This document shows positions 3,996 through 48,148 of a stretch of 53,433 bases of DNA, piece after piece. The DNA comes from Candidatus Zymogenaceae bacterium (lineage in GTDB: Bacteria > Desulfobacterota > Zymogenia > Zymogenales > Zymogenaceae). Location of the stretch: contig JAFGFE010000004.1 in assembly GCA_016931225.1 (NCBI GenBank), forward strand, positions 1-53,433, written 5' to 3'. The notes below the pieces were generated by a model, which was not told where the DNA came from, searched no databases, and saw only the letters and a list, made by a program, of their open reading frames with translations. The stretch's first letter is position 1. The number at the start of each line of letters is the position of its first letter. A program made the position numbers and the translations under genes.

Positions 3996-4051
3996 CTGAC
4001 GTATCACCCCGGTCATTCCATCCCATCGTTATCTATAAAGGAGTCGTACAG

Positions 4052-6530: not shown

Positions 6531-6600
6531 CTGTGTTCCTCACGTTGGATTTATAAAGGGTCTCTTTCACATCACTATGCACGATTTCGTCTGACAATAA

Positions 6601-15442: not shown

Positions 15443-16813
15443 ATGAGTGATTACACAACCCCGTCCGATACAGAAATCGTCCCCACGGGAATGAAGATCG
15501 GATACGGCGTGGGAGATTTCGCCCACAGCCTGGCCTTCAATCTGCCCGCCTTTTACCTGATTTATTTTTATACCGACGTGTTTCACCTGCCGGCGGCGGC
15601 TGCGGGACTGGTTGTCTTCATCGCAAAGCTCTGGGACGCGGGCGTTTCCCCGACGATGGGCTACCTGGTCGATCATACCAAGAGCCGCTGGGGCAACAAG
15701 CGCCCGTATCTCCTCTTTGGCCCCCTGCCGGTGGCGATATCCATCGTGCTTCTCTTTTACTGCCCGGATATCGGCGGGTCTTTTGCCCGGACCGCCTATG
15801 CGCTGATCACATTCATGCTGTTTTGCACCCTCATGACCATGATCACCGTCCCCTACGGCGCCCTGACACCGGCCCTGACCACAGACTCACACCAGAGGGC
15901 GGTCCTGAGCGCATACCGAATGGTCTTCGCCGTCGTGGGAACGCTGGTGGGGGCCGGGGCCACCATGCCCCTGGTGGGACTTCTGGGGGCGGGTTCTGTC
16001 AATCTTGGATTTCGAAGAGTCGGATTCCTGTTCGGTGCGATAGTTCTAACGATCGTCCTCATCACCTTCGCCACGGTAAAAGAACGCATACAGACAGAAA
16101 TCCAACGCTCGTCCTTCAGGGAGACCCTCTCTCTCATCCGGAAGAACAAACCCTTTCTCATCCTCGCAGCCGGGGTGATGATGTACCAGATAGCCATCAA
16201 CACCATGAGCGGCGTCGTCGTCTACTATTTCAAGTACAACCTGCACGCGGAGCACCTGGTCCCGGTGGCGTTCATCACCATGCTGGGAACATCCGCATGT
16301 TCCATCCCGCTGTTTTTGTACATATCAAAAAAGCGGGGGAAAAGATTCGCCTATAACTTCGGCATGGGGATCATGGCGGCCATGTCCGTGCCCCTCTTTT
16401 TCTTCGGCGAAAATAACATCGCAGTGTCCCTGGTGATATTCGTAATCGTGGGCATAGGCGTTGCCACGGTATACCTCTCTCCCTGGTCCATGATTCCGGA
16501 CACGGTGGAATATCTGGAATGGAAGACCGGACACCGCCGAGAGGGGATGCATTACGGATTCTTTCAGTTCGCATTCAAACTCTCTGTGGCGATTCCCGGC
16601 GCAATGGCGGGCCTCGTGCTTCGAATTGTGGGATACGTCCCGAATGAAGAGCAGACGGATTTGGCGCTCCTGGGAATCAAGCTGCTCCTCACCTTCATTC
16701 CGCTGATGTTCGTATTCATCGGCATGTACCTGATCTCCCGCTATCCCATCGATGATCAATTCCACAAGCGTATGGTTTCCGACATCGCCTTAAGAAAGGC
16801 CTCCGAATCCTGA
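15443..16813 (+). CDS. GPH-family (MelB-like) sugar:cation symporter
   Basis: The 456-residue membrane protein matches the glycoside-pentoside-hexuronide:cation symporters. Typical features are IGYGVGDFAHSLAFNLPAFYLIYFYTDVF at the start, the WDAGVSPTMGYLVDHTKSRWGNKRPYLL loop with the family's aspartates and RWG-RPY motif, and VPYGALTPALTTDSHQRAVLSAYRM in the middle. Another family hallmark, DTVEYLEWKTGHRREGMHYG, is in the C-terminal half. It would import a glycoside or related compound with Na+ or H+. No glycosidase gene is nearby, so the substrate is open. GAGAGG lies about 15 bases before ATG 15443, which is a little far. Confidence 0.9.
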   Translation: MSDYTTPSDTEIVPTGMKIGYGVGDFAHSLAFNLPAFYLIYFYTDVFHLPAAAAGLVVFIAKLWDAGVSPTMGYLVDHTKSRWGNKRPYLLFGPLPVAISIVLLFYCPDIGGSFARTAYALITFMLFCTLMTMITVPYGALTPALTTDSHQRAVLSAYRMVFAVVGTLVGAGATMPLVGLLGAGSVNLGFRRVGFLFGAIVLTIVLITFATVKERIQTEIQRSSFRETLSLIRKNKPFLILAAGVMMYQIAINTMSGVVVYYFKYNLHAEHLVPVAFITMLGTSACSIPLFLYISKKRGKRFAYNFGMGIMAAMSVPLFFFGENNIAVSLVIFVIVGIGVATVYLSPWSMIPDTVEYLEWKTGHRREGMHYGFFQFAFKLSVAIPGAMAGLVLRIVGYVPNEEQTDLALLGIKLLLTFIPLMFVFIGMYLISRYPIDDQFHKRMVSDIALRKASES

Positions 16814-16874: not shown

Positions 16875-16903
16875 TTGACATATCGGAAAATAATGGCTAT
16901 AAT
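16875..16903 (+). promoter_or_regulatory. perfect consensus sigma-70 promoter
   Basis: TTGACA at 16875-16880 and TATAAT at 16898-16903 are separated by exactly 17 bases. This is the textbook optimum and predicts very strong, largely constitutive initiation near 16910. The transcript ends at the terminator at 17118-17151, giving an RNA of about 240 bases. Confidence 0.88.
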
Positions 16904-17031
16904 TATTGTAGTAATTTGGTGAGGGCGATCGGCATAAGACGGTACACGTGACGAGGTCTCGCACACAGTGCCGCGGCCGTTCGTCACCGAAATGATCGGA
17001 CGCTCGTTACACCTTTTCCAAGGAGGTTTGC

Positions 17032-17094
17032 ATGAAGCGTTTTATGGTCCCCAGGGTTGCCCATTGTTCTGAGGGCTGCCCACCGATGTCCTGA
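17032..17094 (+). CDS. 20-residue microprotein or leader peptide
   Basis: The frame encodes a basic 20-residue peptide, MKRFMVPRVAHCSEGCPPMS, with two cysteines. AAGGAGG at 17020-17026 sits five bases before ATG 17032, an ideal site. The frame lies inside a transcript with a consensus promoter and a terminator, and no other gene follows on that strand, so it is not a simple attenuator leader for an adjacent operon. Part of the ribosome site can pair with CCTT upstream, which could make translation conditional. Whether the peptide is made is unproven. Confidence 0.45.
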   Translation: MKRFMVPRVAHCSEGCPPMS

Positions 17095-17117
17095 GCAGGA
17101 CGTAAAAAGGCTCAGAG

Positions 17118-17151
17118 AAAAAACCCCGTCCGCTGGGACGGGGTTTTTTTT
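17118..17151 (+). terminator. strong rho-independent terminator
   Basis: An 8-bp GC stem CCCCGTCC/GGACGGGG (17124-17131 with 17136-17143) with loop GCTG is flanked by six A residues before and eight T residues after. It can work in both directions, though the strong promoter points into it from the left. Confidence 0.95.
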
Positions 17152-17374: not shown

Positions 17375-17773
17375 TCACTGTGCGTCCAGCCACTCTTCCG
17401 CTTCATCCATACTTTCAAAGTACATGGTTGTCAATGTATCCTTCGTCATTTCATCCTTGTACTTGTCGAGATACAACTTGATAATTGAAGTGTTTACGAT
17501 GATGGCCGACTTCTTCATGCCGCTTTCCCGCAGCATCGCGGTTCCTTTCAGGATAAGATCGGCGATCTCCTGGGTCGGCGCACCAAAGTGCTTTGCATCG
17601 GACAAGGAAGTGAAGCCGGGACGCAGTTTTCTTGCACATACCTTAAAATCATTGATGTAATCGGGAACCTCCGATACCTTGTTCCAGGTTCCCTTCGGAT
17701 AGAAATAGATACGGTTTTTGGCAAGATCCACTTGCATATCATATTTGTCTCTCAGGGCAACGTCCTGTATCAT
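17375..17773 (-). CDS. conserved-looking small protein, possible SpoIIAA/STAS-like fold
   Basis: The 132-residue cytoplasmic protein has no signal peptide or membrane helix. Its layout (MQVDLAKNRIYFYPKGTW strands, amphipathic helix, KSAIIVNTSIIKLYLDKY, then ESMDEAEEWLDAQ at the end) resembles small SpoIIAA/STAS-like proteins that end in an EEWL-type motif. That assignment is tentative. AGGAGGG precedes ATG 17773, an excellent site. It reads toward the small structured transcript on the other strand. Confidence 0.65.
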   Translation of the reverse strand: MIQDVALRDKYDMQVDLAKNRIYFYPKGTWNKVSEVPDYINDFKVCARKLRPGFTSLSDAKHFGAPTQEIADLILKGTAMLRESGMKKSAIIVNTSIIKLYLDKYKDEMTKDTLTTMYFESMDEAEEWLDAQ

Positions 17774-47655: not shown

Positions 47656-48148
47656 CGTCATGTGACGTCGTACAATCGGGGTCCGACGGCGTCTCTCTTT
47701 GGTTTTCACGGTGTCATATCCGTATTCGGCGTAATACGACATCGGATTTGACATTCAAGACGACTTTCACGGGGGATTGATGTGTGTTTTGAGACACATC
47801 GACATCTTCCAAGGCCGAGAATCATACCGAAGATCGAGAATCCGAAGATACCACATAGGGGCCGGTGACACGGCCCCGTTTCTCTCTCACGCTTTTATAC
47901 AGAAAGGAAAACCGGGGAATAGATACTTGTATGCCGTACCGTCAACTACCGGGGATATCCCCGTTTTTTGGATATGGCCGCGCCCTGCCCCCACTGAAAT
48001 TGTAAGCCGCAACCTCTTCCGACACGCACTGAAAAAAAATCCTGTTGCCATTGCGCCGACATTGACAATTCATACCACGGCTTTATATAATTCAATAGTA
48101 ATGTTGTAACCTTGATGTCATCTCGAATCTCTCTCGGAGTTGAGTCCG
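47656..48148. other. intergenic before the sigma-54 activator
   Basis: A 493-base region without supported genes. One hairpin (47858-47877) may terminate the TauE/SafE transcript. A short direct repeat CGAAGAT-CGAGAATC occurs at 47828-47850. The remainder should hold the promoter of the activator gene. Confidence 0.4.
47858..47886 (+). terminator. hairpin terminator candidate
   Basis: A 7-bp stem GGGGCCG/CGGCCCC with loop GTGACA is followed by GTTTCTCTC, a pyrimidine-rich but imperfect T run, about 200 bases after the permease gene. Confidence 0.6.

Follow-up and report, generated by a model that had tools for sequence, protein, structure and literature searches.

The window, by which we mean the whole 53,433-nucleotide stretch of Candidatus Zymogenaceae contig JAFGFE010000004.1 that was analyzed, contains on its plus strand a compact transcription unit in which a promoter, a folded leader, a 20-codon ORF, a small pseudoknot and an intrinsic terminator follow one another (Table 1). 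Perfect TTGACA-N16-18-TATAAT arrangements number two in the 53 kb window against a mean of 0.01 in dinucleotide shuffles; the other perfect promoter of the window, TTGACA-N18-TATAAT, lies on the plus strand at 48062-48091. Based on the flanking ORFs, a transporter-like one ending at 16813 and a minus-strand one at 17375-17773, we consider the unit to be isolated, and this copy has neither a metal or redox neighbor nor a downstream gene on its own strand. The first-pass annotation, made from the sequence alone, had described the perfect promoter, the AAGGAGG site, the 20-codon frame and the strong terminator, all of which we located in the sequence as stated, and its view that the unit stands alone on its strand agrees with these flanks. 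It had also matched the transcript to no known RNA family, and our search of the window against Rfam 15 likewise returned no family at gathering score; at E<=10 the matches lie far under the gathering scores, mostly over the terminator, and none is credible.

Table 1. Features of the transcription unit in the window
Feature	Position	Strand	Basis or remark
Sigma-70-type promoter, TTGACA-N17-TATAAT	16875..16903	+	consensus bases matched 12/12
5' leader with strong hairpin (16948-16987)	16910..17019	+	folds well; lineage-specific
Local hairpin, ACCUUUU with AGGAGGU	17011..17027	+	minimum-energy and centroid fold, z -2.1
Shine-Dalgarno site, AAGGAGG	17020-17026	+	from sequence
20-codon ORF MKRFMVPRVAHCSEGCPPMS, member of the AHCxxGC peptide family	17032..17094	+	profile match E 4e-11
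CSEGC motif codons, Cys12 to Cys16	17065..17079	+	Cys16 codon at 17077-17079
H-type pseudoknot with A-rich L3	17088..17114	+	covariation; recurrence across phylum genomes
Intrinsic terminator, stem-loop and U-run	~17118-17151	+	sequence and fold

The predicted transcript of the window folds to -98.9 kcal/mol as opposed to -79.1 kcal/mol in shuffles, bettering 200 of 200 of them (z -4.0), which favors the first reading given to the locus, that of a non-coding regulatory RNA acting through its folded 5' leader. However, when the DNA of 39 genomes (its own and 38 relatives) was searched, the matches outside its own genome were confined to the 3' half of the unit; the hairpin at 16948-16987 lies outside the stretch matched in the relatives and is not conserved, and a conserved 5' leader was thereby ruled out. 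Since relatives either lack this leader or have a different one, and the ORF is conserved as a protein, we regard a non-coding RNA as the least probable of the explanations considered here. The earlier suggestion of an unknown regulatory RNA holds insofar as there is indeed a new conserved RNA structure, but this is not the 5' stem: the conserved RNA element, which that annotation overlooked, is a pseudoknot lying at the 3' end of the ORF. The idea of a controlled leader survives locally, as the Shine-Dalgarno site is predicted to be sequestered by the local hairpin in the window fold, but not for the large 5' hairpin, which is absent from the conserved stretch. In one relative (G003) a small hairpin likewise lies at the Shine-Dalgarno site, and the leader folds no better than shuffles. 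Taken as a whole, the earlier interpretation is partly supported.

The ORF belongs to a widespread family of microproteins with the consensus K-R-[FYW]-M-x-[PR]-x-V-A-H-C-x-x-G-C, the first alignment of relatives having shown MKRFM-x-PRVAHC-x-EGC with the pseudoknot sequence directly after it. About 117 distinct peptide units are present among the matches listed, with a single good copy recovered from the genome of the window by profile search, and their hosts, named as on the public records, are Deltaproteobacteria (Desulfobacterota-like), Omnitrophota, Bacillota (including Thermincola ferriacetica and Desulfofundulus thermosubterraneus), Actinomycetota, Zixiibacteriota and others, with anaerobes making up many of the lineages. 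Across the listed units the first and second positions of the core codons are fixed and the third varies: entropy in the core cysteine codons is zero for positions 1-2 and about 1 bit for position 3, with TGC and TGT used 62 and 52 times for cysteine, and CAT and CAC 57 and 53 times for histidine. Because third positions are free and the first two fixed, we conclude that the frame is selected as a protein; this bears out the alternative proposal of an mRNA for a microprotein, and does so by the synonymous-substitution check that had been suggested alongside it. In a few family members the second cysteine is replaced by histidine. Eight family peptides searched against Pfam and NCBIfam (E<=10) matched no family at cut-off, one of them giving weak zinc-ribbon matches under it, and the family peptides lack both an export signal and the RAPP or any other C-terminal proline-rich stalling motif. 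Most matches share one layout: a ribosome site of the GGAGG type, then an ORF some 20 codons long, then the pseudoknot, with a recognizable terminator behind roughly a quarter of them; in these comparison loci, where simple rules were used to call ORFs, 29 of 115 units have a terminator-like structure behind them, versus 2 of 107 for the control stretch. One locus (L277, minus strand) has two pseudoknots, at 6587 and 6614, in direct tandem behind one peptide ORF.

The pseudoknot is 27 nt long, with the consensus GUCCYGRGCA-N-GAC-NNNAAA-NN-GCYC, and can adopt an H-type fold in which S1 joins nt 1-3 with 12-14 and S2 joins nt 5-10 with 22-27; L1 is a C and L3 includes an AAA, and these invariant features were built into the search patterns. 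The window copy has S1 between 17088-17090 and 17099-17101 and S2 between 17092-17097 and 17109-17114, with an A.G mismatch at 17097-17109 (nt 10-22), and S2 forms when the 28-nt stretch is folded alone. When 395 genomes from the phylum were scanned with the pattern, at up to 3 mismatches, 53 had the element, and the reversed pattern gave 0 matches in the same genomes; chance recurrence was ruled out by the 0 matches of the reversed and complement controls. It was not found in E. coli genomes. Covariation strongly supports the predicted fold. The nt 7-25 pair, whose two members (R and Y) could vary independently in the search pattern, is A-U in 130, G-C in 102, G-U in 3 and A.C in only 1 of the raw pattern matches, as against 57 A.C expected. 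Among 63 distinct sequences, pairing is retained in 92% of cells, both partners have changed in 6 of 9 pairs and double-changed cells number 48 against 14 in shuffles, although the counts of base-pair changes are inflated by the relatedness of the sequences; slid pairing registers all score far lower. The nt 7-25 test is the cleaner of the two, since part of the 63-sequence set was picked with the pairing known, and support is partial for the pairs 5-27 (outer) and 10-22 (inner). The covarying stems that had been named as a check on an RNA role thus exist, but in the 3' pseudoknot. Copies without the peptide were also encountered: L213 (~275) and L306 (~3074) have one just upstream of a gene with a heavy-metal-binding-like N-terminal domain, and L038 and L066 (both 4001-4027) have isolated ones, of which one lies ~37 nt past the end of a PII-like gene and the other directly before a run of eight T.

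Peptide and pseudoknot are held in register. Exactly 8 nt separate the end of the last cysteine codon from the start of the pseudoknot in 97 of the 117 listed units, as they do in the window, and most of the exceptions are from one clade with the longer peptide end HCSTCGSxRWS. The sequence of the 8-nt spacer is variable, as is the codon after the last cysteine, and the stop codons are scattered (-8, -5, -2, +4, +10 and +16 relative to the pseudoknot start), falling mostly inside the pseudoknot, as does the UGA of the window ORF (17092-17094); the ORF therefore usually enters the structure. Furthermore, a peptide profile search recovered a clade with peptides such as MWTxRFRIRPVSHCKEGC, and at ten of its loci the pseudoknot is replaced by a perfect, GC-rich hairpin of 8-10 bp, starting 8 nt after the last cysteine codon in nine of them and 7 nt after it in the tenth. 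As a plain hairpin can substitute at the same place, it is the position that is conserved and not the sequence. When the last cysteine codon is in the P site of a bacterial ribosome, an mRNA structure at this spacing meets the entry channel. Given that the spacing is held despite variable spacers and stops, and that the substituted hairpin keeps the offset of the pseudoknot, we infer that a programmed ribosome pause would be the simplest reading of this arrangement.

Pseudoknots at recoding sites typically have a spacing of 5-8 nt, and one stimulating frameshifting, stop-codon readthrough or selenocysteine insertion would suit both the distance seen here and the UGA at which the window ORF stops. 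Nonetheless, we find such a function very improbable: the units have no conserved slippery sequence and no constant open frame after the pseudoknot, the UGA becomes UGG, CGG or CGA in relatives, with stops at several positions, and the spacings of the phage copies described below do not run in multiples of three. A programmed frameshift site was specifically rejected on account of the freely varying spacer and codon after the last cysteine, and a SECIS-dependent selenoprotein gene on account of the same UGA replacements and differing stops.

Returning to the pause, we propose, at about even confidence, that the locus is a translation-pausing unit built around the nascent HCxxGC peptide, which probably serves as a thiol/metal or redox sensor or effector. 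The strong promoter would produce a short mRNA for the 20-residue cysteine peptide, and the pseudoknot would reach the mRNA entrance of the ribosome just as the second cysteine codon of HCxxGC occupies the P site. The structure would then pause the ribosome, with the thiol motif kept by the peptidyl-transferase center, and we speculate that the pause most likely permits a thiophilic metal ion or an oxidant to be sensed, or loaded, during translation. Equally speculatively, the pause might tune adjacent metal/redox genes in operonic copies, and govern the output of the peptide or of a short RNA in isolated copies such as that of the window.

The same pseudoknot is found in more than 100 viral contigs, often more than once per contig, where by our estimate about one chance match is expected and where reversed or complement control patterns yielded 0 phage loci. 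These copies mostly follow a same-strand gene, starting 5 nt or more past the end of its stop codon (mode 6), save for one overlapping ORF per phage list that is probably miscalled. We therefore take the pseudoknot to be a general element that keeps clear of the terminating ribosome, the peptide units being one use of it; a BLAST of phages with the whole unit gave no match. The mode of 6 nt after the stop corresponds to the same ribosome geometry, and we count it in favor of pausing. In phage D6E the pseudoknot lies between the portal and scaffold genes, in Lactobacillus phage phiEF-1.1 just upstream of the scaffold gene, and in Staphylococcus phage B166 (L376, ~1502) just upstream of the gene preceding the major capsid gene, S1 being GAC/GUC in the last two; the genes downstream of the viral copies are mixed overall. 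Three loci from phages of Gram-positive hosts (L376 and L377, both ~1502, and L200, ~3001) have it just upstream of a scaffold/capsid block, and L377 shares the GAC/GUC S1 of L376. As a separate observation, UGA is a rarer stop before phage pseudoknots (L077-L200), at 16 of 94, than among the remaining ORFs of those loci, at 523 of 1454.

Because many unrelated phage genes carry the same pseudoknot, it need not act through the peptide. The main rival to the pausing unit, somewhat unlikely in our estimation, is that the microprotein acts after its release, in metal binding or redox chemistry, and that the pseudoknot or hairpin is a barrier to 3' exonucleases, with no pause involved. A barrier could well be placed after ORFs, including the many phage genes, several of them head genes, and would be in keeping with the direct tandem in L277, the terminators after a quarter of the peptide units and the ability of a plain hairpin to replace the pseudoknot, and the neighboring genes point to a metal/redox role for the peptide itself. 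Yet a barrier requires no exact spacing of the kind observed, and translation would melt it, since most ORFs enter the structure.

Those neighboring genes supply the contextual information bearing on the function of the peptide. Downstream of the units, Rrf2 is found in 9 of 79 and hemerythrin in 7 of 79, counts inflated by relatedness within Omnitrophota and one Delta clade, along with cupins, HMA, Usp and Msr (MsrA/B), and Metal_resist, YHS, ArsR, ArsP and MarR occur upstream or nearby. NCBIfam names CopA/CopZ-type and other P-type ATPases, ArsR/SmtB metalloregulators and Rrf2 among the neighbors, and by our own reading of their sequences others appear to be rubrerythrin- and flavorubredoxin-like. 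It is based on Rrf2, hemerythrin, HMA, MsrA/B, ArsR, ArsP, YHS, rubrerythrin and CopA/CopZ in these positions that we favor a metal or redox role. Against the proposed pausing unit stand the window copy, with its lack of such neighbors and of a downstream gene on its strand, and the absence of an arrest motif such as RAPP.

In the Omnitrophota the peptide is the first cistron, 48-101 nt upstream of rrf2, and the peptide-rrf2 promoter carries a TGATACnnnnnTGGTATCA palindrome, which is likely to be an autoregulatory Rrf2 operator. The palindrome overlaps this promoter in L313, L317, L236, L262, L298, L299 and L268. In one Delta clade it is hemerythrin that comes after the peptide unit. Both arrangements, together with the palindromic promoter of the former, are what would be expected of a cis-acting leader peptide or attenuator controlling the downstream gene. 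The window copy speaks against it, since the gene that comes next there is encoded on the opposite strand. As the downstream gene is not constant and many units have their own terminator, we judge attenuation to be improbable, and a fixed downstream partner gene was ruled out. A more far-reaching form of the pausing proposal, which we put forward as decidedly doubtful, is that this is a genetic element of a new class, in which a widespread 27-nt ribosome-abutting pseudoknot, placed by phages at the ends of their genes, was adopted by anaerobes to hold a ribosome where the ultra-short peptide ends; the stalled ribosome-HCxxGC complex would itself be a metal/redox sensor even where there is no downstream gene.

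Our search of the open-access literature found no description of the peptide core, the pseudoknot sequence or their pairing, and in that on phage pseudoknots and on arrest peptides with pseudoknots the element is not described. What we report is the pairing, recurrent across many bacterial phyla, of a ~20-residue microprotein family with a covarying pseudoknot that Rfam lacks, and the exact spacing along with the structure swap gives a sharp ribosome-pausing hypothesis that is testable. Sensing by the nascent chain is suggested by the precedents of CruR and CutF, metal-sensing, copper-responsive nascent chains that have both a cysteine pair and stalling, though each is longer than the peptides described here. 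CruR (DUF2946) of Bordetella pertussis is a copper-responsive upstream ORF encoding an exported product of 145 residues, with a CXXC motif, a C-terminal RAPP and Rho-dependent output (PMC9426467). The peptide units resemble it in tying a nascent-chain cysteine-pair motif to translation and to metal-homeostasis operons, but differ in their length of ~20 residues, the HCxxGC at the very end, the lack of RAPP, the RNA structure at a fixed distance and the frequent lack of a downstream gene. Many copies head a metal-homeostasis operon, or nearly so, and the window copy does not. CutF of Rhodobacter capsulatus is exported and proline-rich, and a stem-loop masks the ribosome site of the next gene (PMC9973294). 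Here the likenesses are the CxxxC motif (HCxxGC being C-x3-C), the mRNA structure downstream of or at the end of the ORF, the metal genes nearby and, on our reading, stalling; the units are unlike CutF in having the structure at the ORF end with exact spacing, and in standing alone in the window. HCxxGC provides a cysteine pair that could bind copper, and the eight family peptides showed no DUF2946-like match in Pfam or NCBIfam (E<=10); the family does not fall within that of CruR or CutF, although a similar mode of working is plausible.

TnaC is another short arrest or leader peptide. With their ~20 codons the units are comparable to it, and nascent-peptide sensing at the ORF end is plausible, but they differ from it in sequence, are followed by no fixed operon and have a pseudoknot where TnaC has a Rho site. 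The preQ1-I riboswitch is a tiny H-type pseudoknot with an A-rich third loop, both of which features recur in our element; unlike it, our element matches no such Rfam family even at E 10, has diverse downstream genes and has its position set by the end of the upstream ORF. If it is true that the nascent peptide senses a metal or an oxidant, then the sensor would be far smaller than CruR or CutF.
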